Assembly: GCA_001304015.1 (NCBI GenBank)
Contig: LJUY01000005.1
Span: 1 to 64,000, forward strand
From: a candidate division Zixibacteria bacterium SM23_81
GTDB taxonomy: Bacteria; SM23-81
DNA: 64,000 nucleotides
Direction: 5' to 3'
The position numbers were made by a program, and so were the translations under genes. Below the pieces are notes generated by a model. The model was not told the DNA's origin. It ran no database searches and saw only the letters and a list, made by a program, of their open reading frames with translations. Positions 3,798 to 48,249 of the stretch are shown here, one piece after another. The stretch's first letter is position 1. Every line of letters starts with the position of its first letter.

Positions 3798-6700
3798 TCA
3801 GCGGATAATGGCGAATTTTCCCACCGCCGTTTTGCCGTCTTCAGCCTCTACCTGGTAGATATAGAGACCGCTCACCGCCCTCATGTTCTCGCTGGTTAAA
3901 AGATTCCACCTTGCAGAGCCATCCCCCTCGGCGCTATGGTGCTTCAAAGTCTGGATCAACAGACCAGCGGTGGTGAAGATGCGTATGGTGCAGTGGGCTG
4001 GAAGATGTTGGAAGTAAACCCACTGATCAAACCGATTGCGATCCCATGGAGCTCGGACATAGTATGGATTGGGAACGACGGTGACCCGATCCAGTGAGTA
4101 GTCGCTCTTCCACCTGTTTGAAGAGAACTGATACTCATCCTCATCGGTGAAAGGCTTATTGGTCACGATGGAGAACACAGAGCTGCTCGTAGGTGGACGA
4201 GTGTCGTCGGTGACCTCTGTGAGGAGCGTCATAATCGGTCGTATTCCATCTCGGTCATATATCAGGATTTGGTCTCCTGCGTCCCAAATGCCGTTAGGTG
4301 GATTAGGTGGATGGGGCACGTCATACCATAGAGTGGGATACTGCTCATCCAGCGAGATGTTAGTCACCAGCCAGGGAACGGTAGTTCCTCCCTTGTCGAT
4401 GCTGCCTCCCGGAGGGAAGGTTATTTCGAAGTCATAGGGATCGTTAGTCAGAAATTCTAAGCCGAGATTGAAATTGTACCCAGGCTCACCTTCGGTCCAT
4501 TGCCCAGCGAACTCACCCTCCGCTCTCACGGTGACATTCTTGGGACCCTGGACCTTCAACACGCGCAGGCCCTCCACAACCTCCGGATGGGCATCGACCA
4601 CTGCGGTATCGCTGCGTATGAGAAACATGGAATCCAACAATACCTCTCCGGTGCTCTCGTTGGTGAGCCTCCAATACCCAGCTTTGGGATACGTTTGGTT
4701 AGCGCGGATGAAGGTGATGCTGTAATCATCGCCCTGGAGGTCTACGGGCTGAGCTATCGCCACGAAAACCGATCCCGTGGCTGCCCCCGCGAAATGAATC
4801 AGCTTGCTGTTCTGGGTGGACCATTCGACCAAATCATCCACCTGTGCGGCGTTGCTTCGGGGGATGACGGCGTATTTTCTGCCGCTCGTGGCGCTCTCCA
4901 GGGATTCCAGTCCCTCCACTTGGTAACCCTTATCAAAGGATGTCACCGAGTAGTAATAGGGCAGCCCGTTGGTCAGTCCCTCGTCGGTGTAAAAGTAACG
5001 AAGTCCCACTTGGTCGCTAAGGGGTTCGCTTAGAAATGTCCTGACGGTGAACAGGTCTCCCGCTTGGGGTTGGTAAACGGTTCCCGGCGGATGAAGCTCG
5101 CTGGAGTCGCCCTTTGCGATGGAGAAGAAGAATCCATTGGTGTATATGAGACCTCCGTCAAGGTAACGGCCCAGGAAATTGTTTCCCGGAACGGGCAGGG
5201 CGATGACGGATGTATCCGCAGGATCGAATACGCCAAAGACGTTAAAGGTGTCCAAGGCATTCTCTTTATATTGATACAGAGTTTGCTGGGTGTTATTGTA
5301 CATGGTGAAGGTGGTATCGCTGGCGAATTCGATGAGGTACTCGCCTTCCACGTAAAAAGCGTTCTGCCTCGGGTAAAAGCCCTCGTGTTTCAATGTGACC
5401 ACCGAGTTGCCGCGAGCGTACTTCACTTGAACGGACCTTCCGGTGCTATCGCCGGCGATGTCGTATTCGGCTAGCTGCTCCCAGGTGCCAGCCAGCCCCG
5501 AGATGCTCCGGTAAATGCGATATCCCTCGAAGTCTTTTTCGCCGGTGATGAGATCTTCGACTTCCTCTGGGGAATCATCCCAGGTCAAAAAGGCCATCTG
5601 ATCTCCCGCCGTGGCAACTACCTCGGGGGAAGGCGGCGGCGCATCCCCCATATAGCCCATATTGAACTGCTCCTGGGCCTTGAGGGTGTTCTCCTTGAGT
5701 TCCGCCAGGCTGCGTCCCATGACGATGGCCAGGGTCCAGATGACCTGCTCGCCCGGCATCAACCGACGATAAGGACCACTGCAGCTGAGATGACGTACAT
5801 CCCGGGGCTCCTCGAAGATCTCGAAGACAGCCGGATCTGGATCGTCTGCGAAGGCAAAGCCCGATCCATCCGGATCCCCAACCAGCTCGGCGTATTTGAG
5901 GGGATCCTGTTGCTCGTTGTCTACGATGCCCTCAGGGCCATGATCTATTCTCACCCAGGTGGAAAAGGCTGTTAAACCGATCTCTTCCTCCTCGCCGGGG
6001 CGGGTGGGCGTCTCCACAAACACACAGCCGATATATCCCGCAGATGTAGGCCAGCCAGGCTCCTTCAGGTCGCTGTCATAGGTGTAGCCCAGCTTTAAGG
6101 CCTCGTCATAGCCGATAAGATCGTCGTTGGGCCCCATACCCTCGACGTCGATGTCTCCGTGACCCACGTCGTTGTCCATGAAGAAGCCGAAGTACAGGCT
6201 GTCCAGTGGCCAATCATTCATGTTCTTGATCCTGAAGTCGATAAAGACGTAGTTGCTACTGGCCCCATAGCTCCAGGAGTAAGTGCGCTGCTCCACTCGA
6301 AGGCCCAGACCATCGATATCATAGCCAAAAGAGGGCCATAGGAAATTGGCCTCCTCCTCCGGAACCCAGTCACCGTAAACGCACCAAGTGTCTTGCAGTG
6401 ATATGATATCCCCAGCTCCAGGGTCCAGAGCGTAATTGTTGTGGTCGAACGTATCCCGTCTCCTGGGATTAATGCCGGCGCTATCGGCGTAAGGCCAGTG
6501 CTCCTGGTACGGCAGCGGATCCTGTCCGGAGGGGGCATACACCAAGCTGCCGGCATTCTCGTCCGTCTCCGGAAACATCTGATCGCTGGTGCGCAACGGG
6601 CTCATGGGGGTCATGTCCGGAGTGTAGGCGCCGGTGGCCACCCGGGGCACCCAAGTGGTATCATTTCCCAGGATGACGGGGCATATGGCCCCGATCCACG

Positions 6701-7097
6701 GGCCGGTCGAGAAGTTGTAGTACTGCATTGAGCCGGCCGGAAATTCGGCGCACCATCCGTTCCAATTGGTGGTGTTTTCATCCCATGTTCCGTCGTACCC
6801 GGACCAGCCCGGCGGCTGCTCGTACAGACCCAGCAAGCCCGTGTTGGTGATGGTGAACTTGCGCAGATCTCCCACGCCGATCCATGTAGCCCTGGCCACA
6901 TCTGGTTGATCCTCATCGTCTGTGGTCTTAGCCAGCACGACCGGCGCGGAGCTCTGTCCATATCCGGTTGGGTCTTTGGGAAGCATGGCGCTGTCAGCGT
7001 TGACCATCCAGACAACAGAACAGAGAGCCAAAACCAGGATGGCCGCGCTGGCCCGCCACGTTAAAAAATCTCTTACCAGAAATCCCATCATCTTCAT
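3798..7097 (-). CDS. Large surface protein with C-terminal FlgD/T9SS-type sorting domain
   Basis: 1099 aa. An N-terminal hydrophobic segment (about residues 14-35) acts as signal peptide; GGGGAGG precedes the ATG. The first ~500 residues are rich in W, Y, D and G with no family I recognise (they read like the beta-rich ectodomains common in FCB genomes). Around residues 505-545 is a fibronectin-III-like stretch (TWDDSPE ... GYRIYRS). The final ~85 residues form a FlgD-like sorting domain (VVPNPYYVRAPWD, IRIFTTAGLLIQTL, WNLLTSENMRAVSGLYIYQVE). It lies between a TonB receptor and a PorV-like protein, probably as one transcription unit; a role in capturing or binding an external substrate for the receptor is inference. 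Confidence 0.8.
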   Translation of the reverse strand: MKMMGFLVRDFLTWRASAAILVLALCSVVWMVNADSAMLPKDPTGYGQSSAPVVLAKTTDDEDQPDVARATWIGVGDLRKFTITNTGLLGLYEQPPGWSGYDGTWDENTTNWNGWCAEFPAGSMQYYNFSTGPWIGAICPVILGNDTTWVPRVATGAYTPDMTPMSPLRTSDQMFPETDENAGSLVYAPSGQDPLPYQEHWPYADSAGINPRRRDTFDHNNYALDPGAGDIISLQDTWCVYGDWVPEEEANFLWPSFGYDIDGLGLRVEQRTYSWSYGASSNYVFIDFRIKNMNDWPLDSLYFGFFMDNDVGHGDIDVEGMGPNDDLIGYDEALKLGYTYDSDLKEPGWPTSAGYIGCVFVETPTRPGEEEEIGLTAFSTWVRIDHGPEGIVDNEQQDPLKYAELVGDPDGSGFAFADDPDPAVFEIFEEPRDVRHLSCSGPYRRLMPGEQVIWTLAIVMGRSLAELKENTLKAQEQFNMGYMGDAPPPSPEVVATAGDQMAFLTWDDSPEEVEDLITGEKDFEGYRIYRSISGLAGTWEQLAEYDIAGDSTGRSVQVKYARGNSVVTLKHEGFYPRQNAFYVEGEYLIEFASDTTFTMYNNTQQTLYQYKENALDTFNVFGVFDPADTSVIALPVPGNNFLGRYLDGGLIYTNGFFFSIAKGDSSELHPPGTVYQPQAGDLFTVRTFLSEPLSDQVGLRYFYTDEGLTNGLPYYYSVTSFDKGYQVEGLESLESATSGRKYAVIPRSNAAQVDDLVEWSTQNSKLIHFAGAATGSVFVAIAQPVDLQGDDYSITFIRANQTYPKAGYWRLTNESTGEVLLDSMFLIRSDTAVVDAHPEVVEGLRVLKVQGPKNVTVRAEGEFAGQWTEGEPGYNFNLGLEFLTNDPYDFEITFPPGGSIDKGGTTVPWLVTNISLDEQYPTLWYDVPHPPNPPNGIWDAGDQILIYDRDGIRPIMTLLTEVTDDTRPPTSSSVFSIVTNKPFTDEDEYQFSSNRWKSDYSLDRVTVVPNPYYVRAPWDRNRFDQWVYFQHLPAHCTIRIFTTAGLLIQTLKHHSAEGDGSARWNLLTSENMRAVSGLYIYQVEAEDGKTAVGKFAIIR

Positions 7098-7158
7098 TTT
7101 CGCCTCCCCTGAAGAACTGTTTTAACCCCCAACATCTCCTAGTTTGCCCTTCATGACC

Positions 7159-10100
7159 CTAAAACTGCAGGGTAGCTCCTACCCGGATGATGCGCGGATT
7201 GCTGTAGTAGGCGGGGTCCTTATAGCGTACCTCCCAGTTGGCCAAGGCTGCCAGATAAGCCTCCTCGGTACTATATCCCACTCGTTCCGGACGGTTGCCA
7301 TTGTCATCCGCCTCTCCCGTCTCAGGGTAAACTTCGACAACGTTCTCCACATCAAACAGGTTTCTCACGTCCACGAAAAAGCCGTAGTTAAGCATATCGT
7401 TGATGTGGAAAATTTTATCAACGCGCAAATCGGTAGTGTGGATGGAGGGCATCCTCTTGGAGCCCACATTCGCCGATGGTTGACCTTGAGCCGTCAGCGG
7501 GGTGTAAGGAGGCCCAGAAGCATAGTTAAACTGAACATTGCCGTTCAGATCAGAAAACGGCTTGAAAAACAGCAGTTTAGGGCCGAAATCATGGGGTAGG
7601 TAGAGGTTCACATTGGTCTTCACGGAATGGGTAACGTCGAACTCAAGCGGATATTCCCGTTTGGGCAGGGGCGTGGTGGCCGTAGAGTATCTGTAGTATC
7701 CCTCCCGCGGGGAGGAGCCAGTGCCCTGAGCATTGAGGTAGGAATATGTCACGGTCCCTGACAGAAATTCGGAGGCCCGCTTGGACAGGGAGATGTCGAT
7801 GCCCTTGACCACGGCAAAATCCTCGATGACAAACATCTCGATGGAGATGGGATTATCCCGGAAAAGTGGATTCAGGCTACGGGAAGCCAACAGATCGGTT
7901 ACATCCTTGAAGTAAGCCGTCACCTCCCCGGCCATATCGGGGGTGAAGGCGTACTTCAGGCCGATCTCGTAGGCCACCGTCTTTTGAGGGGGCAAATCGG
8001 GGTTGCCGATGAGCGGGCGACCGGTGGTAAAATCGGCGTTAAGGGATTGATACAACTCGCCCAACTCCACGGGCTGAAAGAAGTGTCCGTAGTTCGCGTA
8101 CATGACTGCTTTGTCCGTGACCGCAAAGGAGATGCCCAACCGGGGGCTGAACTTGGATTTGGGATCCACCGGCTCGGTGCCCAGGCTCAAGTCCTCCAAG
8201 CTGATGTAGTGCTCCGACTTGGGGTCGAAATAATCGAATCGTACCCCGGCATTGATCACCAGGTCCTCGAACTCGAACTTGTCCTGAATGTAGGCGGCGG
8301 CGTATATTGGCTCCTTTGTGTAGTTATCGGAGTAAGGATTACGGTTGAGAAACTGGATATCGGTCAACTCCAGGTCGCCCTTGCGGAAGTAGCCGCCCGC
8401 CTTCACCTGATTCGATTTGTTTATCTGGCTGGTGATGGAGAAGTCGCCCGTGTAAAAAGTGGTGCTGCGATCATGGTACCAGGGGACGAAGTCGTAGCGG
8501 AAATGATAGAAATCGTCATAGTCATGTCCGTAGAAATTGTGGATATCTCCATTGTACTCGTCGCTTTTATGCTGCTCGGTATTGGCCACCTCCCACAGAT
8601 AGCGGTCCAAGTCAAACTCCTTATATTCGACATCAACAGCAGTGCTTTCTCCAGCGATGACCTCATACTTGAGCTTCCATTCACCCGTATCATACCAGCG
8701 ATTGTTGAGGGCCTCTTGCTGCCAGACCAGGTAATCCCAAACCAGCTTTCCGGTGGCGCTGTCCCTATGAGCATATCCCTGCCCATCGTTGACCACCTGA
8801 GTATAGTAATACTCCCAGGCCCATTCCGGCTCCACGGGCACGTATTCCTCCTGTTCCGAATCCCACCGCTCGCTCCATGCTTGGGTCTCCGGGTCGTACC
8901 ACGACTCATAATCAGTGCCAGCTTCATTCACGTGAAGGATAGCGTAATCCACCCAGGGCAGCCCGCCGCCAACGGTTCGCCATTCCAAATAGCTTTTGCC
9001 ATCCTGACCTTTGCGCTCGCGCCAGGTGTTGAAATAGCTGAGGTTCAGGTTCCAGAAGGTGCTCTGGCTGATGGTGTGGGTGGTGCTCAAGTTAAGTTGC
9101 AGATTGCCGCTCTTATCAAGGGGGACATCCTTCAGCCAATTGCCCTTGGAACGGCTATGGCTGTATGAGTGCCACTCGCTCCTGGCCCAGTTTCCTCCCA
9201 AGGTGAACTTCAAGGTGTTGGCCGGCTTCCAGGTCAGCTTGGCCGTGCCGCTTTCCCGGCGCAAGTCGTTGTTGGGTTTCGGGATGATGCCCGGTTCTCG
9301 ATCTTCCCGGTCGTCCACGCTGCTGGAGACGAAGAACATGAAGTTCTTCACAGCGGGAACGGGACCGCCGAGACTGAGCTCCACCTTGTTGGTGCCGTAG
9401 TCGTACCGGGACTTGTTGAAGAGTGCGTCGGTGGTGTATTCCACCGTCCCGCCATAATTGGGGGTCCCCTCCTTGGTGATGATGTTGACGATGCCGGACA
9501 TGGCCTCGCCATATTCGGCGTTGAAGCCGCCGCTGATGACCGACATCTCGGCGATGGCGTTGGTCTCGATGTTCACGCCTCTCTGCATATAAACGGGATC
9601 GTTGGCGATGACCCCATCAACCACATAGACCACCTCGTTGTCCCGACCGCCGCGAATGTGCAGACCTCCCGAATAGGTTCCCCCGGTCTCCACCGCACCG
9701 GCCTGGTTGGCCACCACATCCGTGAAGCTGGTCACAGGCATTCTATCGATTTCCTTGCCGCTAAGGAGCCTGGAACTGGAGGTGACATCGCGCTCCACGA
9801 TGGGCCTTTCGGCCACTACCACCACCTCTTTAACGATATCCAACTGGGTTTCTCCAAGGGGGAAATCGATGATCGTGGTCATGTCCGCCGAGACGTGGAC
9901 ATTCTGCACCTCCAGAGGGCTATATCCCATCATGGACGCAGTCATAGTGTAAGTCCCCACCGGCACGTTGATGACGAAATACTCGCCCTTCAGGTTGCTG
10001 GCCGCGCCCATGGTGGTGCCCGTGATGATGACGTTCACCCCAGGGAGGGGAACGCCGGTGCTCTCGTCGTACACCCGCCCGGTGATCTTCCCGGTGGTGC

Positions 10101-38103: not shown

Positions 38104-39144
38104 TCATTTAAGCTCTATACTCGGTGACTTGGAGGCAATCACATGCCCGATGAGACGGGCCGAAAGAATATCGTGGCGATGAAGGAGATCCACGAGGTCT
38201 CCGGCTTTCTCTTCAGTCACGGCCATCAACAGACCCCCGGAAGTCTGGGCATCACAGAGAAGAGTGTGGAGGACTGGGTCAATTTTGTTGAGGACCTTTG
38301 TATAAGGCTGAACATATTCGAAATTCTTCTTTGTGCCCCCAGGTACCAACCCAGCTCGAGCGTATTCCAGGGCACGACTCACGAGAGGCACTTCCTCAAC
38401 CAGGATGCGAGCTCCCACATTACTGGCCATGAGCATCTGCAGAAGATGACCCAGCAGACCAAATCCGGTGATGTCCGTGCAGGCGTTCACGCCCACCTCC
38501 AGCATGCACTGAGAGGCAGAATGATTTAACTGAGTCATCAGAGCGTTGATCTCCTTAACAGTCTGGGGCGACGCCCGGCCGGCTTTCAGGGCCGTGGACA
38601 CAATTCCCGTTCCCAGAGGTTTGGTCAACACCAATCCATCGCCTGGTCTCGCGCCGGTGGTGCTCACGATCTTGTCCCTGTCCACAATCCCCGTTACCGC
38701 TAGACCATACTTCAACTCCTGATCTTTTATGGTGTGCCCACCGATGATGACCGCTCCGGCCTCCTTGACCTTCTCTATGCTCCCTTTGATAAGCTTCTCC
38801 AAGATAGAAAGGTCCAGTTTTGTGGGAAAACCAACCACGTTAAGAGCCGTCAGTGGCCTGGCTCCCATGGCGTAGACATCGCTCAGGGAATTCGCGGCAG
38901 CGATCTGGCCAAATACGTAGGGATCATCTGCGATGGGTGTGAGTACATCGACCGTCTGGACTAAGGCTCGCCTCTCGTCCAGCACGTAGACTCCCGCGTC
39001 CCCTAGAGCTTCGTACCCCAAGATGATGTTGGGATCATCGAATGTGGGCAAATGGCGCAGAACCTGCGCCAGGTCTTTTTGACAGACCTTAGCCGCTCAC
39101 CCAGCGGCCTTGGTCATGGCGGTTAGGTGAACCACTTCTTCCAC
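38104..39144 (-). CDS. selD: Selenide, water dikinase, itself a selenoprotein (Sec16)
   Basis: 346 aa when the in-frame TGA at 39097-39099 is read as selenocysteine. The GTG at 39144 has AGGGAGG nine bases upstream and gives an N-terminus reading ...TKAAG-U-AAKVCQKDL, the SelD active-site loop in which the catalytic residue is Cys or Sec followed by a conserved Lys. Without read-through the protein would start at an internal codon and lack the active site. The rest is canonical (VQTVDVLTPI, GQIAAANSLSDVYAMGARPL, GGHTIKD). Makes selenophosphate from selenide and ATP for Sec-tRNA synthesis. Shares the locus with tRNA-Sec, selA and selB. Confidence 0.95.
39071..39099 (-). promoter_or_regulatory. 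SECIS-type hairpin and UGA codon of selD
   Basis: Seven bases after the TGA, AGGTCT (39084-39089) pairs with AGACCT (39071-39076) around a GTCAAAA loop. Position and a GU at the start of the apical loop fit a bacterial SECIS recognised by SelB. Confidence 0.7.
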
Positions 39145-39229: not shown

Positions 39230-39324
39230 TGGCGGAGGCGTGTAGGAATCGAACCTACCGAGGACAAATATTGCCCCCAACTGGATTTGAAGTCCAGCAG
39301 GCACACCAGCACCTATCCGCCTCC
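39230..39324 (-). tRNA. selC: tRNA-Sec (anticodon TCA)
   Basis: 95 nt with encoded CCA. Acceptor GGAGGCG pairs with CGCCTCC; anticodon stem-loop CTGGA-CTTCAAA-TCCAG has TCA at 39288-39290; a long variable arm and T-loop GTAGG-TTCGATT-CCTAC follow. The length, long extra arm and UCA anticodon identify selenocysteine tRNA. It lies 85 bases upstream of selD on the same strand, downstream of a strong promoter. Confidence 0.96.
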
Positions 39325-39455: not shown

Positions 39456-40952
39456 TCAGTGGGAGTACGGTGCGCCCTGAAACTTTGAATCCTTTCTTTT
39501 CGCCTCTCCTACGACCTCATCGCGCAACACCTGGTCATCATACCCAGGCATAATGGCGCGGCTGCCCTCCTCCATCAGATAGGCACCTACTCCCGAGACG
39601 GTCAGCACGTCGCCCTCCCTCACCGAATCCAGGTCGATTCCCGTCTCGCTTCGGACCAACACCACAACAGCTCCCGATCCATCGTCCAGATGCAAGCGGG
39701 TCCAGCTTTCGTCCTCCAAGGCGAATACAACCTTGCCCCGGACGCTGATCAGGGTGTTGTCCCACCGGGAGTCCTTGGCCTCTCCGGTGGACAGGACTTG
39801 AGGGGATGGCGATGGATGGCCCCTCTCCAGCACCGTCACCGATGGCCCGATGATCTCTTTGAGACCATGGTAGTCCTGGGCCATCCCCTCCACCCTGACC
39901 AAGTCACCGCGCGAGATGCCCTCCTGGAGGCGATGGTCAAAAAGCAGGATGCCCCGGCCGGACTGATCTTGAATGTAGACCTTCATACGCTGGTCATCGA
40001 GAACGCCGCTTCCCATGGTCACCACGCCTTGTACCGTGACCAGATCGAAAGTTTCGGGACCGGGCTCCAGATTTGCGATGACCTCGACCTCGGCGGGCGG
40101 TGGAAACTCCGGCTGGCCGGCATCGACCCAGGCCGTATACCATAGATCGGCCAGAACTCTGGCCGACTGGCCCAACTGGCCGATAGTGAAGGGGCCCGTC
40201 TTCTCCCACATGATTCGGTAGTATTCCGCGCTATAGGTCGGAGACCGCTTCCTGGCCTGGCGATCCGCGTTCAGAATGCTATCTACATACATCCAGGTGC
40301 CTGGGATCGTGGCGAAGATGTGTTCCAGGGGATCCTCGATATAAACGGCCAGACTGGAATCGGGCCTCAACTGGGCCAGGTACCTCTCCACCATGTGTAT
40401 CTCGTAACGTAGATGGACTCCATCGTGACCAGTGAGCTGGCCATCGTAGTTCGCGGTGGTATGAAGGGGCTGGTGACAGTCGGCCACATAGTGGCCCAGA
40501 TCTGCCGCCAGGAGGACAGCCTGACTCCATTCGCCCCCGGCCATGACCACGCTCAGGCTTTCGGTGACACCGGCTATTGTCCAGGGTACTACCCCATTTC
40601 CATAGACGTCAAGATGATGACTGTGTTGAGCCCGAAGAGAATCCAGGTCGTGGGAGAGAGACCCTGCGTAAAACTCGGGATAATTGTCGATGTCGATCCA
40701 GTGACGGGGACCTTCAAGAGGATCGGTGGCTTTGCGAGCATCTGCATCGCTCGCATGAGCAGCGATGATCCTAGACCAGCGTTCGAAGCCGGCCATCTCC
40801 ATGGGTAGATGCTGGAACGCCTTTTCGTTCACCCAGCGATGGACCCGACCACCCCAGGCCCAACTCACTGCCGGCAAGGAAAAGATCACAACAGAAATTA
40901 CGGCCGCCCAGTAGGACCGCCTGCTCCGCGAAGCCGTCATGGTAAGTCTCAC
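39456..40952 (-). CDS. S1/P1-type nuclease / zinc-dependent phospholipase C-like protein with two OB-fold domains
   Basis: 498 aa secreted protein. The signal peptide ends at ...AVSWA, exposing Trp33; in this superfamily the mature N-terminal Trp and a His five residues on (WGGRVH) bind zinc. Further ligand-like residues: HASDADA, RHWIDID and the hallmark HYVADCHQPLH (~residues 150-160). After ~residue 275 come two OB-fold-like modules (VTVQGVVTMG and ISVRGKVVFALE) as in YhcR-type surface nucleases. Probably degrades extracellular nucleic acid; phospholipase activity is the alternative. It lies between selB and tRNA-Sec with no obvious link to selenium. Start could be the GTG at 40952 or the ATG at 40940. 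Confidence 0.8.
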   Translation of the reverse strand: MRLTMTASRSRRSYWAAVISVVIFSLPAVSWAWGGRVHRWVNEKAFQHLPMEMAGFERWSRIIAAHASDADARKATDPLEGPRHWIDIDNYPEFYAGSLSHDLDSLRAQHSHHLDVYGNGVVPWTIAGVTESLSVVMAGGEWSQAVLLAADLGHYVADCHQPLHTTANYDGQLTGHDGVHLRYEIHMVERYLAQLRPDSSLAVYIEDPLEHIFATIPGTWMYVDSILNADRQARKRSPTYSAEYYRIMWEKTGPFTIGQLGQSARVLADLWYTAWVDAGQPEFPPPAEVEVIANLEPGPETFDLVTVQGVVTMGSGVLDDQRMKVYIQDQSGRGILLFDHRLQEGISRGDLVRVEGMAQDYHGLKEIIGPSVTVLERGHPSPSPQVLSTGEAKDSRWDNTLISVRGKVVFALEDESWTRLHLDDGSGAVVVLVRSETGIDLDSVREGDVLTVSGVGAYLMEEGSRAIMPGYDDQVLRDEVVGEAKRKDSKFQGAPYSH

Positions 40953-40992: not shown

Positions 40993-42864
40993 CTAATCCT
41001 TCACCAGCTCTCTATTGTTCCCGATCCTCTTGGTAAAGCCAATCTGATCCAGATATTCCGCCAGAGGCACGGCGAACTTCCGGGATGTCCCCCAAAGCTC
41101 CCGCATCTCGCTGAGCCGCATGCGACCCTGTCGGGACATCTCCTCCCGAATAAGATGCTTCGCCTCCTCCAGGACAGAACGATGCAGGTATATCTCCTTG
41201 GTGAGCCCCACCAGAATCCCCTGTTTAGCCAGAGCGTAGAAGACCTTAGAATCATATTCCGCCAGGAGTTCTTCCCTTGTGGGGGGATTGAACTTTCGTT
41301 CCAGGAATAGCGTCTCGATCCTCTCCCGCTCCCGATCTTGCTCCGGGGAGAAACGGATCTCCCGACCCCTCTGGCGTACCTCATCACCAGAAACCTCCAC
41401 CTGGTCGAGGACCGAGAGAACCTCCTCAACGAGCTGCCCTGGGCATTGAATTTTGCCCTTCAACTCCTCTTTAGACATCCCTGTTTTAAGAGGGTGGCGG
41501 TGATGAAATTCCTGGATCTGAGACAGAATTTCACCCTGCATGCCCTCCAGAGCGTCTGATCCCATCAAAAAGGGGCCTAACACCCTAAGATGACCTTGTT
41601 TCTGCATTTGCGAAACGGTTGCATTCAAGCGTTCATCTGGCAGTCGCAAATTTCTCTTCATGTCCTCGACCAGCACGGGCCCGCGGGACAGGTCAGAAAG
41701 GAGAATTTTAGTCAGATCCCCTCCTGCCCTGGCCTCAAGGCTTTGTAGAATCGAGCCATCAAAACGTCTGTGCTTCTGGGGCTGGGGATCCAATATCGTT
41801 CCTCCGCCGAGGAGGGTTTGAGGAGAATAGGCTCGCAGGACAAAGCGATCACCGTACCAGGCCACAGTCGGGGTTTCCAGCCGTAGCTGAGCATAGACCT
41901 CCTGGCCGCTCTGAGCCTCTTTCGCAGAGAGAATGACCAGCCTGGCCAGAACTTCGGCGCTGCCCAGGTACAGGCGTACCCGAGCCCAATCTCTTACCAC
42001 AAGTTCCTGACCCACAACTTCGAGCTTGACATCCAGCCGCAGGGTGGGCTCGAAGGCACCCTCTGTGGATATGACCTCCCCGCGTTGTAGCTCGCTTTTG
42101 CCTGCACCCACCAGGTTGAGTGCCACCCGATGGCCGGCCACAACTCGGCGCATCAGCTGATGATGAACATGAAGTTGCCGGATCCTAGCCTTTAGCTTTT
42201 CAGGGTAAACCACCACCTCGTCGCCTTGAGAGAGCGTCCCGTAGGTCAGGCTACCAGTGACAACCGTGCCGATGCCCTGAAGAATGAAAACCCGGTCGAC
42301 CAGTAACCGAGGAAGATTGCCCACCTCTCGAGTTGGCAAGGCGACGATGATACTGTCCAGGAGGGCTATCAGCTCTTCCAAGCCAGTCCCGGTGACAGGT
42401 GAGACTTTCAGGATCGGGCTGCCCTCCAGATATGTCCCCCGCAGGAGATCTTGAATCTCCTCCACCACCAAGTCGGCCAGCTCCGCATCCACAGCGTCCA
42501 CCTTGCTGACCACCGCCACTAGTTTGGGAATGCCCAGAAGGCGAAGGATCTCTAAGTGCTCCTGCGTTTGCGGCATGAGGCCCTCGTCGGCGGCCACCAC
42601 CAGGAGAGCCAGGTCAATGCCGCCCACACCAGCCAGCATATTCTTCATAAATCGCTGGTGCCCGGGAACATCGACAATGCCCACCCGGCCAGCCTGGGGT
42701 AGATCCAGGGAGGCGAAACCCAGATCGATGGTCAACCCCCGCCTCTTCTCCTCAGCTAGCCGGTCAGTATCTACGCCGGTGAGGGCTTTGATCAGCTCCG
42801 TTTTACCGTGGTCCACGTGACCCGCTGTGCCCACAATAACGCCAGGATGCTCCGCTTTTTCCAT
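40993..42864 (-). CDS. selB: Selenocysteine-specific elongation factor
   Basis: 623 aa. GTPase domain: [11 protein letters not shown] (~residue 12), [13 protein letters not shown] in place of NKxD, as in SelB. EF-Tu-like domains II/III follow, and the last ~250 residues are the tandem winged-helix repeats that bind the SECIS hairpin (for example [18 protein letters not shown] and [18 protein letters not shown]). It carries Sec-tRNA to UGA codons. Starts 20 bases after the selA stop. Confidence 0.96.
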
Positions 42865-42884: not shown

Positions 42885-44297
42885 TCAGACCGCTCGAATC
42901 TCCTCACACAGTCGGACCACGATGCGCTGCAGGCTGGCCAGCTCCCCGGGCATCACTGTTCTCAGGTCCAACAAGAGCCGATTGCCGGCAATCCTGCTCA
43001 GCACCGGGGGGTCACTCATCCTCAGCCTCTGCGCCATCTGGGTAGGAGAAAGAGCCCTGGCACGCAAGCCGATCAAGCAGGTGGGCACCTGAGCTCCGGG
43101 ATAGGAACCCCCCCCCACCGCCGAGAATCCATCCACCAGCTTAGCCTCCAGATCATCCCCCGACAGGGGCCGCACCTTGCCCAACAAGCGCTTTGCCCGG
43201 CGCCGGACCTCGGCAACAGGTTGCAGGATCATCTTCAGATGGGGCAATCTCGCTGCGGGCTCGTCGGCATAAGCGTAGAGTCGCAGAACTGCCTCCAGGG
43301 CAGTCAAGGTGAGCTTCCCCACCCGGATGGCCCGGGCGAGGGGATTTCTTCGTAGCCGAGTGATGAGCCTCTGGCGTCCCAGAATGATGCCACACTGAGG
43401 TCCCCCCAGAAGTTTATCGCCGCTGAAGGTGATCAGATCAACCCCGGACCTTACCGCCTCCACCACAGTAGGCTCGTCCCCTAGCTCGCTTTCCTCCAGG
43501 CCCGCCAGAAGGCCGCTGCCCAGATCCTCAACGGTCAGCAGGCGCCGCCTTCTTCCCAGCTGGACCAACTCTTGAAGGGACGGTCGCGCGGTGAAGCCCA
43601 CCACCATGTAATTTGATGTGTGGCTGCGAAACAGCATGGCGGTCCTCTCAGTGACGGCCCCCTTATAGTCCTCGAGATAGGTCCTGTTAGTAGTGCCCAC
43701 CTCAACCAGCTCAGCCTCGCTGCTGGCCATCACCTCGGGGAGGCGGAAAGAACCCCCGATCTCGATGAGTTCCCCCCGGGAGACGATCACCTCCCGCCCC
43801 TTAGCGAAGGTGTTTAACACCAGGAGCACGGCGGCGGCGTTGTTATTGACCACCATGGCGGATGGCGCCCCAGTGAGCTTGGTGACCAAGCCCTCCACGT
43901 GGACCATCCTGTGCCCCCGAGTTCCCGGCTTCAGCTCCGTCTCCAAATTGCAGTAGCCAGCGGCGACTCGACTCAAGGCCTGAACGACCTCTTCGGCCAA
44001 GGGAGCTCGTCCCAGATTGGTGTTCAGAATTACCCCTGTGGCATTGATCACCGGCCGTAGACTATTTCTGGCCATGTCATTTAACAACAGCTCTACCTGA
44101 TCGAGAAAGGCCGCACGGGAGACTCCACAGGAAGGTTCTGTCCCCTGGCGGAGGAGATTTCGCCACTGGTTTACTACCCGACGCATGGCTTCAGCCAGCA
44201 ACTTTCGTGGGAATTGACCGAAGCGCTCCCTCACGGAGCGGTCGTCTAAAAATGCTCCAATGGAGGGTAAATCTCGAAGGGAAATGGAAGAGGACAC
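42885..44297 (-). CDS. selA: L-seryl-tRNA(Sec) selenium transferase
   Basis: 470 aa. PLP Lys in TFSGDKLLGGPQCG (~residue 295); GVILNTNLGRAPL, NNNAAAVLLVLNTFAKGREV and RGELIEIGGSFRLPEVM are SelA hallmarks. Converts Ser-tRNA(Sec) to Sec-tRNA(Sec) using selenophosphate, the bacterial route. GTG start with CAGGAG upstream. First gene of selA-selB. Confidence 0.97.
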   Translation of the reverse strand: MSSSISLRDLPSIGAFLDDRSVRERFGQFPRKLLAEAMRRVVNQWRNLLRQGTEPSCGVSRAAFLDQVELLLNDMARNSLRPVINATGVILNTNLGRAPLAEEVVQALSRVAAGYCNLETELKPGTRGHRMVHVEGLVTKLTGAPSAMVVNNNAAAVLLVLNTFAKGREVIVSRGELIEIGGSFRLPEVMASSEAELVEVGTTNRTYLEDYKGAVTERTAMLFRSHTSNYMVVGFTARPSLQELVQLGRRRRLLTVEDLGSGLLAGLEESELGDEPTVVEAVRSGVDLITFSGDKLLGGPQCGIILGRQRLITRLRRNPLARAIRVGKLTLTALEAVLRLYAYADEPAARLPHLKMILQPVAEVRRRAKRLLGKVRPLSGDDLEAKLVDGFSAVGGGSYPGAQVPTCLIGLRARALSPTQMAQRLRMSDPPVLSRIAGNRLLLDLRTVMPGELASLQRIVVRLCEEIRAV

Positions 44298-44363: not shown

Positions 44364-44409
44364 AAAAAAACGTCCCCACCAGAGACGTGCTCGTCTCCTC
44401 TGGGGACGT
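44364..44409 (-). terminator. Terminator after the UshA-like selenoprotein gene
   Basis: Minus strand CGTCCCCA ... TGGGGACG outer stem enclosing AGACG/CGTCT, followed by seven T residues. Lies between the UshA-like gene (ends 44485) and selA. Confidence 0.8.
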
Positions 44410-44484
44410 CTAAAACACGGCTTAAAAGTCTCCCCTGCTTGATATACGGAAGGCAGACGCTACCTTTCCCAGATCGCGTGGGGA

Positions 44485-45480
44485 TCATTCCCTTTTGGCT
44501 TTTCTCCGCGTTGGGTAGAGTTCCTGGAGCGCCGTCTTGTATTCTATCACCAATTGACCGAGCTCCTCGTCGTCTGCCACATTCTGATCCAAAAGGGTCC
44601 ATTGCACCTGATGAGATGTCACCATGTTTTGGTCATCCAGGATCAACTCGATGTCGCCCAGCTCGTTGTCGGAGACCGCCGGCAGCACGAATATGGTCCC
44701 GTCGACCTCTTCGGTATGCTTTCCTTTGGCACCCTTGCCGAAAAAGAAGAGGTCAATGCCGCTCACATTTTGGGCCACTCGTGTGGCCTGTCTGAGGTCA
44801 AGATCTGAGATGATAATCACCACGTCGCATCTTTTTCTCAGCCTCTCAACGGTGGTCTGAAGCACATCCTCTGGCTTGGCGATGATCATATCCCTGGAGA
44901 TTTGTGAGCCCTTGGGACCCCCACGTATCTCGTCGACTAAACCTATGATGGCCACTTTAATGCCCCCCCTCTTAAATCCCAAAAAGCTGGATGAGCCTAC
45001 TCTTTTAATCACATAGGGGGGCACCAGCAGTTGATTCCCGTTCTTCTTATAGAGGTTGCTGGAAATCAGAGGAAGACGTTCTCTGTCCCTCATTTCAAGT
45101 ATCTGGCCAGAGCCCAGAAGAATCTCCTCCCGGGCCAAGTTAATGGCATCATATCCCATGAGGGCCATGGCTTTGGCCAGGTATTTGGCCTTCAGTTCAT
45201 TGGTCGAGCCCTTGCCCTGCGCAAAGTTACCGATGTCCACGATCAGGTGGGGAGCTCCTCTGTCAAGCTTCTCATTAATCACCGTGGCTCTCCGAGCCAC
45301 GCCGCCATAGCGACAGCCCCGTCACCCGCTGGGTTCCATCCGGCCGCTGACATTGCCGGTGAACAGCACGTGCAAACTCATAGGATCTCGAGCCTGTGCC
45401 ACCGATACGCACAAAATCAGCACTCCAGCTGCCAACAAGATCGTTAATAACTCTTTTCGTCCGAATAAGTTTCCTAACAT
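44485..45480 (-). CDS. UshA-like metallophosphoesterase selenoprotein (Sec53)
   Basis: 331 aa when the TGA at 45322-45324 is read as Sec. The ATG at 45480 opens a signal peptide (to ~residue 30, ...VSVAQA), so the protein is exported. The mature N-terminus reads LFTGNVSGRMEPSG-U-RGC, followed by RYGGVARRATVI. Relatives of 5'-nucleotidase/UshA have a CGC-type motif here; this one has S-G-U, then U-x-x-C, a redox-type pair. The frame continues cleanly as VDIGNFAQG ... INLAREEIL ... VAIIGLVDEIRG, the metallophosphoesterase core. The C-terminal 5'-nucleotidase domain is absent. UshA-like (seleno)proteins are a known but uncharacterised family. Next to selA and a Sec-HdrA gene. Confidence 0.85.
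45283..45324 (-). promoter_or_regulatory. SECIS-type hairpin and UGA codon of the UshA-like gene
   Basis: Twenty bases after the TGA (45322-45324), CGTGGCTC pairs perfectly with GAGCCACG around a GGA triloop (45283-45301). Spacing and strength suit a bacterial SECIS; the loop lacks the GU seen in the other two. Confidence 0.6.
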
Positions 45481-45583: not shown

Positions 45584-45727
45584 TCATGAGTCCTTTTTCT
45601 CCTTCAGACGCCTCACACTATTGCTGTCGCACTTTGGACAGGCCCTCTCCTCTGCGACCTTAGGAGTATATGGAGCCGTGAACCCGTGGCCACATCGTAG
45701 ACATTTAAATTTGGCTTCCTCTGCCAT
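45584..45727 (-). CDS. Small zinc-ribbon protein
   Basis: 47 aa: MAEEAKFKCLRCGHGF then ACPKCDSNSVRRLK. Two CxxC pairs form a rubredoxin/FmdB-like zinc ribbon; charged Lys-rich end. GAGGTG lies five bases before the ATG, and the gene starts 20 bases after the hdrA stop, so it is co-transcribed with the Hdr operon. Similar mini zinc ribbons occur beside hdr genes; it might be an assembly factor or a rubredoxin-like carrier. Function unknown. Confidence 0.75.
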   Translation of the reverse strand: MAEEAKFKCLRCGHGFTAPYTPKVAEERACPKCDSNSVRRLKEKKDS

Positions 45728-45747: not shown

Positions 45748-48210
45748 TCAGGCCACGGCCTCTGCCTTAGCCTTGACCTTTTTGGTTCTCTTCTTCAACA
45801 TATCTTCTGTGATGACTCTCTTGGTGTGCTCGATTTCTTTTGCTGTGACGGCTTCTCTTAACTGCTCGACCTCGCGCATCACCCGAGCCCACTTCTGGCC
45901 CTCGGCCGCCGAGACCCAGTCCAGCTGGAGGCGCTCCGGGCGGATGCCCAGGGATTCCAGTTTGTCCCACAGCTTCTCGATTCTCTTCTGTGTCCAAGTG
46001 ACAGCGTTAATGTAGTGACAGTCGGTGAAGTGACAGCCGCTCACCAAGACTATTGGAGCGCCCAGTTTAAAAGCCTTTAGGATGAACCTCTCATCTACCC
46101 GACCACTGCACATGGTGCGAATGAGCCGGGCGTTGGGCGGGTACTGCAGCCGAGAGGTGCCGGCCAGATCGGCGCCGGGATAGGAGCACCAGTTGCAGGC
46201 GAAGGCGACGATCTTGTCCTGGGCATTCTCGGCCAGGATGGCCTCGATCTGGGCCATAATCTGCTCATCGGTGAAATGCCGCATGGTGATGGCCCCGAAA
46301 GGACATTCCGCGGAGCAGGTCCCGCAGCCAGCACAGGCGGCCTCCACCACCACGGCGGGGGTCTTCTTCTTGGTGTCCACATAGATGGCGTTATAGGGAC
46401 AGACCCGGGCGCAGATCCCGCAGCTGGTGCACAGCTCGGGGTCAACCATTGAGGTGATGGCCTCCACCGTCACCTCCCCGGATCTCATCAGCCGGTTGGC
46501 CCTGGCAGCGGCTGCCCCGGCTTGGGTGACTGAATCCTTTATGTCTTTAGGTCCCTCTGCACACCCGGCGAAGAAAATCCCCTGGGTGGCCGCATCCACT
46601 GGCTTCAACTTGGGATGAGCCTCCAGAAAGAAACCGTCGGCGCTGCGTTGCAGCGTAAGCTGCTGCTGCGTGTTGTCCATATCCCCAGGAGGAACCACTC
46701 CAATGGACAGAATGACCATGTCCACCTCATGCTTCTTTAGCTCACTTGTGGTGGTGTCCTCCGCGGTGAGGATCAGGTTTTTCGTCTTTGGGTCCTCGTA
46801 GATATCCCCGGGGATGCCCCGGATGTACTGTACCCCGGCGGCCATACTGCGCTTGTACAGGTCCTCGAAACCCTTGCCAAAGGCGCGAATGTCCATGTAG
46901 AAGACCTTGCACTGGACCTCCGGCCAATGGTCCTTGATGAGCAGCGTGTCCTTGATGGTGTTCATGCAACAGATGTTGCTGCAGTACGGGTTACCTCTCT
47001 TCTCGCATCTGGAACCGACACACTGGATGAAGGCCACAGTCTTGGGCTGTTTCCTGTCTGTGAGCCTGATGAGGTGCCCCTCGGTGGGTCCTCCCGAGTT
47101 GATCAGCCGCTCGAACTCCAACGAGGTGATGACGTTTTCGTACTGTGTGTAGCCGAACTCATCGAGCTCCGTGGGATCATACACCTCCATGCCGGTAGCC
47201 ACGATGATGGTGCCCACCTCCAGCTCGATCTCCTTATCCTGATCGTCATAGTCGATGCACCGCTTCTCGCAGGCCTCCAGACACTTGCCGCAGGCGATGG
47301 GCTCATTGCCCAGACAGTCCTCCATGTTCAGGACGAAGGCGGCGGGAACCGCCTGGGGAAATTCCTGATAGATGGCCTTGCGGGTGGACAGGCCCAGGTT
47401 GAATTCATCCGGCTTGACCACGGGGCAGACCTCCAGGCAATCTGCGCAGGCGGTGCATTCCTTCTCGTCCACATACCGTGCTTTTTTCAGGACTGTTACC
47501 TTGAAATTCCCCACATAACCGTCCACCCTCTGGACTTCACTCAGGGTCAGGAGCTCTATGTTCGGATGCCGACCGGCATCCGCCATCTTGGGTCCCAGAA
47601 TTCATATAGAGCAGTCCATGGTGGGATAGGTCTTGTCGATCTGAGCCATGATCCCACCGATGGACGGCTGTTTTTCCACGAGATAGATGTGATAGCCCGC
47701 GTCGGCCAAGTCCAAGGCCGCCTGAATGCCGGCCACCCCTCCCCCGATGACCATAGTTTTCTGAATCACCGGGACCTTGGTCTCCATCTGCGGCTCAAGG
47801 AGTTTGGCCCTCGCTGCAGCCATGGCCACCAGATCCATGGCCTTTTGGGTGGCCTTCTTGGGCTCATTGATATGCACCCAGCTGCAGTGTTCCCGGAGGT
47901 TAGCCATCTCCATGAGGTACGGATTGAGTCCGGCCTCCTGTACTGCCGCCCGAAAGGTGGGCTCGTGCATTTTGGGGGTACAGGAGGCCACCACCACTCG
48001 GTTCAGGTTGTGCTCGGCGATGGCATCCTTGATGGTCTGCTGCCCGGGCTCCGAACAGGTGTACTTCTGAAAGTCGGAGTAGACCACATTGGGCAATTCC
48101 TCGGCGAATTTGGCCACATCTTCGCACTCCACTGTGCCAGCTATGTTCAGCCCGCACTGACAGACGAAAACGCCAATCCTGATCTCCTCTGGGGAGCTTT
48201 TGTTGGCCAT
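45748..48210 (-). CDS. hdrA: HdrA-type flavoprotein fused to MvhD, selenoprotein (Sec203)
   Basis: 820 aa when the TGA at 47602-47604 is read as Sec. ATG at 48210 has AAGGAGGAG upstream. Order: N-terminal HdrA domain ([30 protein letters not shown]), FAD site [17 protein letters not shown] (~163), the DCSI-U-ILGPKM segment (~199-209), 4Fe-4S motifs ([24 protein letters not shown]), second FAD half, two ferredoxin clusters ([24 protein letters not shown]), then an MvhD domain ([22 protein letters not shown]). Protein homology is continuous across the UGA, which excludes two genes. HdrA is the flavin-bifurcating subunit of heterodisulfide reductase-type complexes; Sec at this site is known from methanococcal HdrA. 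Confidence 0.93.
47563..47604 (-). promoter_or_regulatory. SECIS-type hairpin and UGA codon of hdrA
   Basis: Nineteen bases after the TGA (47602-47604), CGGATGCC pairs perfectly with GGCATCCG around a GGTC loop (47563-47582). Strong stem with GU in the loop, as in known bacterial SECIS elements. Confidence 0.75.
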
Positions 48211-48249
48211 AGCGTTACTCCTCCTTATTTTTTTCACTGTATTTTTGCT

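Follow-up and report, generated by a model that had tools for sequence, protein, structure and literature searches.

UshA-like selenoproteins (COG0737) with CxU or CxxU motifs have already been listed, without a function, in the literature (PMC2398784, PMC9312934, PMC13188914), and such listings go back to 2008 (PMC2398784). They belong to the few major selenoprotein families that lack a Cys-based redox motif of known role (PMC2398784). No biochemistry of the family was found in the literature searched, and the open-access literature searched contained no description of UshA-like fusions or of a redox role. Two profile models describe these proteins, NF041198 (UshA_like_PCGU) and NF049981 (UshA_like_Sel_2).

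In this work, a stretch of 64,000 nucleotides from a Zixiibacteriota genome (the window) was analysed, and its UshA-like gene was compared with these families. The gene (44485-45480; all window features described here lie on the reverse strand) encodes 331 residues with Sec at position 53, and its sole domain is of the N-terminal 5'-nucleotidase type. Alignment with the UshA-like families, which the sequence-only reading had proposed as a check, placed the protein as homologous in its N-terminal part and below the cut-offs of both models. In the tree, it was nested among the Sec members, in a six-member set together with proteins from the genomes G001, G002, and G105 (SH-aLRT 95). Judged by its sequence, it belongs to the known UshA-like selenoproteins as a divergent member without a cytochrome. 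The family itself is known; what is new is a variant of it, in which this arrangement of the motif is combined with an architecture lacking the cytochrome.

The UshA-like gene and its Sec codon

The frame runs from the ATG at 45480 to the TGA at 44487-44485 and contains a single internal in-frame TGA (45322-45324). It had been claimed that this TGA interrupts one continuous frame, and that reading it as Sec restores a signal peptide and the motif EPSG-U-RGC; the 331-residue frame and both elements were found as described. The sequence around residue 53 is MEPSG-U-RGCRYGGVARR, and in the alignment Sec53 pairs with the second Cys of the EPCGC of the relatives, in agreement with the proposal of an exported UshA-like selenoprotein in which Sec replaces that Cys. 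The signal peptide covers approximately residues 1-31 (45388-45480), with a cleavage site between AQA and RD assigned by eye, and it predicts that the protein is exported.

The start and the N-terminus of the protein were conserved in G001, a genome of the same family as the window genome, whose protein shares 63% identity and carries the same in-frame TGA. Two tandem copies, each with the TGA, were present in G002, from the same phylum, and the TGA at the Sec site was also kept in many more distant relatives; no copy of the gene was found in G003. When the codons downstream of the TGA were compared between the window genome and G001, dS was 1.38 and dN 0.24 (dN/dS approximately 0.18), and the differences at codon positions 1, 2, and 3 numbered 79, 48, and 121 over 270 codons.

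Furthermore, the 8-bp hairpin that had been noticed 20 bases after the TGA was confirmed at 45283-45301. It reads CGTGGCTC-GGA-GAGCCACG (45301-45283), begins 20 nt past the TGA and has its loop at 28 nt, and it agrees with the rules described for SECIS elements of bacteria, namely a loop of 3-9 nt, a G in one of the first two loop positions, and a distance of 16-37 nt from the UGA (PMC13188914). Across the family, the stem at this place averaged 7.4 bp in Sec-coding members (n = 50) and 5.1 bp in Cys-coding ones (n = 17; p ~1e-5), and the energies were -17.3 and -11.1 kcal/mol, respectively (p ~1e-5), genome G+C being a possible confounder of both comparisons. Taken alone, the window hairpin was only modestly unusual: a stem of this length with the loop G arose in 6.6% of synonymous recodings, and stem, loop G, and energy were all matched in 2.7% of them.

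The genes for Sec insertion were all present within the window: selA (42885-44297; TIGR00474), selB (40993-42864; TIGR00475), the gene for tRNA-Sec (UCA) (39230-39324), and selD (38104-39114, start tentative). The selD frame also contains a TGA (39097-39099, in the context AAGUAAK), which makes SelD a selenoprotein as well. The sel cluster also contains a gene for an exported protein that resembles S1/P1 nucleases by eye (39456-40952), and a gene resembling this one was observed directly 3' of a Sec UshA-like gene in G069 (L045:8711-9733).

Because the TGA is conserved, the codons beyond it are under purifying selection, Cys homologues exist, the hairpins of Sec-coding and Cys-coding members differ, and the Sec machinery is encoded nearby, the TGA is almost certainly read as Sec, the selenium in the protein being a prediction. 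The opposite reading, in which the TGA truly terminates translation or stems from an assembly error, the locus being a pseudogene or two separate proteins, could appeal to the modest rarity of the window hairpin taken alone, but is scarcely credible given the same TGA in G001 and G002, the selection acting beyond it, the Cys homologues, and the machinery.

The motif around Sec53 and the phosphoesterase scaffold

Family-wide, the rule at this site was E-P-C-G-(U or C)-x5-G-G-x-A-R-R, with somewhat variable spacing. The window protein carries PSGU, which is neither C-x-U (PCGU) nor CxxU: Ser51 (45328-45330) stands in for the Cys of the C-x-U found in most relatives, and a partner Cys at +3, Cys56 (45313-45315), creates a lineage-specific U-x-x-C. 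This arrangement was restricted to the window and G001 among the genomes examined, while U-x-C was found in two other lineages, represented by copy A of G002 (PSGU-GC) and by G177, a member of the Thermodesulfobacteriota (PTGU-GC). Five members had neither the upstream nor the downstream Cys, namely those of G118 (PVGU), a deltaproteobacterium (PSGU-GASR), and two Eisenbacteria (PTGU), and the Cys form of G107.

The distribution of the two cysteines was then counted in 67 members, collected by a motif search that demanded Sec or Cys at the Sec53 site. A downstream Cys was absent from all 61 members having the upstream one and present in four of the six lacking it (Fisher p 2e-5); with three further members devoid of both, the proportion among those that had lost the upstream Cys became 4/9. 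The tree showed seven losses of the upstream Cys and three gains of the downstream one, the gains falling only on lineages with the loss. These patterns are suggestive of compensation of the upstream loss by the downstream gain, three gains and seven losses being too few for a phylogenetic test. The sequence-only reading had described U-x-x-C as a redox pair; the pair is real in the window and in G001, but it does not extend to the family, where C-x-U prevails and a second thiol is missing from some members, and U-x-x-C was rejected as a family rule. Since the five members mentioned above lack both cysteines, the invariant feature of the aligned sequences is the Sec/Cys itself and not a Cys pair, and the moved partner thiol suggests that selection keeps the Sec and not a fixed pair.

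In a homology set collected without demanding Sec or Cys, the members lacking both were mainly ordinary 5'-nucleotidases, plus one paralogue in G038 that lies in tandem after a Sec member (L048:7221-8498). Sec and Cys copies occur in tandem in G164 (L107, L071), which makes this genome useful for a Sec/Cys comparison.

An AlphaFold2 model of the window protein, built with 44 sequences, reached a pLDDT of 92.3 and a pTM of 0.88, and its best PDB matches were 5'-nucleotidases (E 3.6e-22, TM about 0.7). The predicted fold around U-x-x-C was that of a metallophosphoesterase and not of thioredoxin, so that, on this model, the protein is not a thioredoxin-fold oxidoreductase. Judged from the secondary structure of the model, two short strands are predicted here (51-53 and 56-58), and U53 and C56 occupy the ends at which they face each other.

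The metal ligands, whose inspection had been proposed, turned out to be lost. The nine metal-binding and catalytic positions of 5'-nucleotidases were considered (D41, H43, D84, N116, H117, D120, H217, H252, and H254 in E. coli numbering). None of the nine was kept in the aligned window protein, two ordinary relatives in the same alignment kept all nine, and the 44 Sec/Cys members tested kept at most five, His117 being kept in none of them. Phosphoesterase action by the window protein is consequently very unlikely on sequence grounds. Retention of phosphoesterase activity, with the Sec in a structural or metal-related role, would fit the clear 5'-nucleotidase fold, but the residue counts in the window protein and in the other members make it highly improbable. 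The absence of a C-terminal nucleotidase domain was also borne out, since the protein has 331 residues and no Pfam match; the longer relatives, however, end in a tetraheme cytochrome and not in a 5'-nucleotidase domain.

Gene neighbours and candidate electron-carrying partners

The upstream genes on the same strand in the window encode a small FmdB-like zinc-ribbon protein of 47 residues (45584-45727; PF09723, E 5e-7, below the gathering score), a heterodisulfide reductase subunit of the HdrA2 type, whose reading frame continues across a TGA at 47602-47604 (45748-48237; NF040770, 1214.7 bits, cut-off 1100), and further Hdr/Nuo-type subunits. The upstream neighbours in G001 differ and encode a 2-oxoacid:ferredoxin oxidoreductase. 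On the downstream side, selA was conserved in G001. A strong terminator-like hairpin of approximately 18 bp with a U-run lies between the two genes (44368-44411), and an equal structure of altered sequence was found in G001 (L033); it would be a terminator, or possibly a leader element of selA. As it intervenes in both genomes, selA is probably transcribed separately, co-transcription with the UshA-like gene was set aside as unlikely, and the adjacency says little about function. Hence, of the two neighbours named in the sequence-only reading, the Sec-HdrA was upheld, and selA does adjoin the gene but probably in a unit of its own. Across 53 loci, no neighbour family was dominant apart from tandem UshA-like copies.

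Additionally, the architecture of the relatives was analysed. A C-terminal tetraheme domain with three or four CxxCH motifs was present in 41 of the 67 members, and it corresponded to PF13435 (cytochrome c554) where tested. Another 24 complete members had no C-terminal heme domain, and in six of these (five loci) a unit of thioredoxin and a CcdA/DsbD-like membrane part was fused or adjoining; the cytochrome domain and the membrane relay were found together in none of the 41 tetraheme members. In G002, the two Sec copies are followed after 25 bp by a gene whose product combines two thioredoxin-like domains with a membrane part. The Cys form of G041 is fused to the thioredoxin-membrane unit in one 730-residue frame, and in G070 and G075 a Cys form with an N-terminal AhpC/TSA-type thioredoxin domain adjoins such a unit, which is preceded by DUF1573. 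In G102, a DsbD_TM (PF02683) gene lies immediately upstream of the UshA-like member, which is a Sec form. DUF1573 was observed fused to thioredoxin and a CcdA-like membrane part beside UshA-like genes (L052:8349-9875 and L123:3398-4921), and this domain is itself known as a selenoprotein family.

The relay units aligned with invariant CxxC, NPC, and CTG cysteines. Their membrane part matched neither PF02683 nor any other Pfam family, and its naming as CcdA/DsbD-like rests on these cysteine motifs. UshA-like and relay matches occurred together in 14 of the 116 genomes searched and touched each other in four, where well under one would be expected by chance (arithmetic from the sizes of the genomes).

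In the window genome itself, the G002 relay has a full-length orthologue on contig C23 (43% identity, E 5e-122), in an apparent operon with ArsR, an ArsP_1 permease, and two thioredoxin-3 proteins (L155, G000:C23:5000-22000, 5555-9557). Its location on a contig other than that of the UshA-like gene counts against a relay partnership. Furthermore, G001, a 92%-complete genome, has the UshA-like selenoprotein but gave neither a relay nor a DsbD_TM match, which either speaks against a strict requirement or stems from missing sequence in that genome. A cytochrome c554 partner in the window genome was rejected, PF13435 giving no match in this or in three other genomes of the phylum.

The arsenic-related genes bear on a different reading, in which the Sec, together with a Cys close by, is no redox catalyst but coordinates a soft metal or metalloid; the protein would then be exported to bind arsenic, mercury, copper, or the like, or would serve an exporter as its delivery protein. 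This idea draws on the operon of the relay orthologue just described and on G102, where the family member lies beside both the DsbD_TM gene and an ArsP_1 permease (L047), and CxC and CxU are plausible soft-metal sites. We consider it unlikely, since no metal-resistance neighbour recurred in the loci examined, five members have no second thiol, and a fused tetraheme domain is better suited to electron transfer.

As electron carriers are fused to the relatives or linked with them, the most likely function of the window protein, predicted from these sequences, is to move electrons and not to cut phosphates. With moderate confidence, we favour an exported redox selenoprotein that is built on a phosphatase scaffold with a dead site and receives its electrons from a thiol relay in the periplasm. 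Insertion of Sec at position 53 would depend on SelB and the SECIS-like hairpin, as the comparisons above indicate indirectly, and the exported protein would fold as an N-terminal 5'-nucleotidase domain whose old metal site, to judge from the alignment, is dead. Sec53, in a predicted beta-hairpin, would be the active group, and Cys56 may serve as the resolving thiol in the window lineage in place of the upstream Cys of the family. The oxidised selenium would then be re-reduced by a periplasmic electron source. The fusions point to the tetraheme c554 domain as this source in most relatives; fusions, neighbours, and presence in the genome point to thioredoxin and a CcdA/DsbD-like membrane protein elsewhere, including the phylum of the window.

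A wider proposal is put forward tentatively. The exported Sec/Cys proteins on this dead phosphoesterase scaffold might constitute a widespread redox class of their own with a modular electron supply, either a tetraheme cytochrome or a thioredoxin/CcdA-like relay, in which the partner thiol has moved from C-x-U to S/T-x-U-x(1,2)-C in Zixiibacteriota and in one lineage of Thermodesulfobacteriota. The fusions, the shared neighbours, and the dead metal site make the UshA-like proteins a redox class open to testing, for which candidate electron donors can now be named.

Comparison with known systems

Among enzymes of described activity, the window protein has the fold of the catalytic domain of 5'-nucleotidase/UshA/CD73 (TM about 0.7, as above) but lacks both the nine metal and catalytic residues and the C-terminal substrate-binding domain. 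SoxB thiosulfohydrolase shares the 5'-nucleotidase-type fold and acts on Cys-bound sulfur. Its model (TIGR04486) gave the second-best family score and matched 31 of the 33 members of set A1, so that SoxB is among the closest annotated families, and the Sec could by analogy carry sulfur as a persulfide or thiosulfonate, with electrons given or taken up by the heme or the thiol relay. Such a role is quite improbable, because SoxB requires the metal site that the window protein has lost, and the score of 52 bits is far below the SoxB cut-off of 550. Among the neighbouring genes inspected, moreover, none was noticed to be a sox gene.

For the favoured redox selenoprotein, the closest parallel to the proposed electron supply is the periplasmic DsbD/CcdA-thioredoxin relay. 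The candidate partner unit likewise has CxxC thioredoxin domains, along with a membrane part in which two cysteines are invariant and which, in contrast to that of DsbD/CcdA, is not recognised by PF02683.

Of the selenoprotein families, NF049981 (CxxU family 2) is a short model of 262 positions, to which the window protein is homologous across the N-terminal ~90 positions; the window protein differs in having no CxxU and scored 50.3 bits (cut-off 140). Copy B of G002 has the CPTU form, yet it was also under this cut-off. NF041198 ("COG0737 UshA-like, CxU") gave 138.1 bits (cut-off 275) over model positions 8-240 of 519. The window protein shares with it the N-terminal domain, the Sec position at the second Cys of EPCGC, and the GG-x-ARR that follows, and differs from it by a Ser for the upstream Cys, an extra Cys at +3, and the lack of the tetraheme C-terminal domain.
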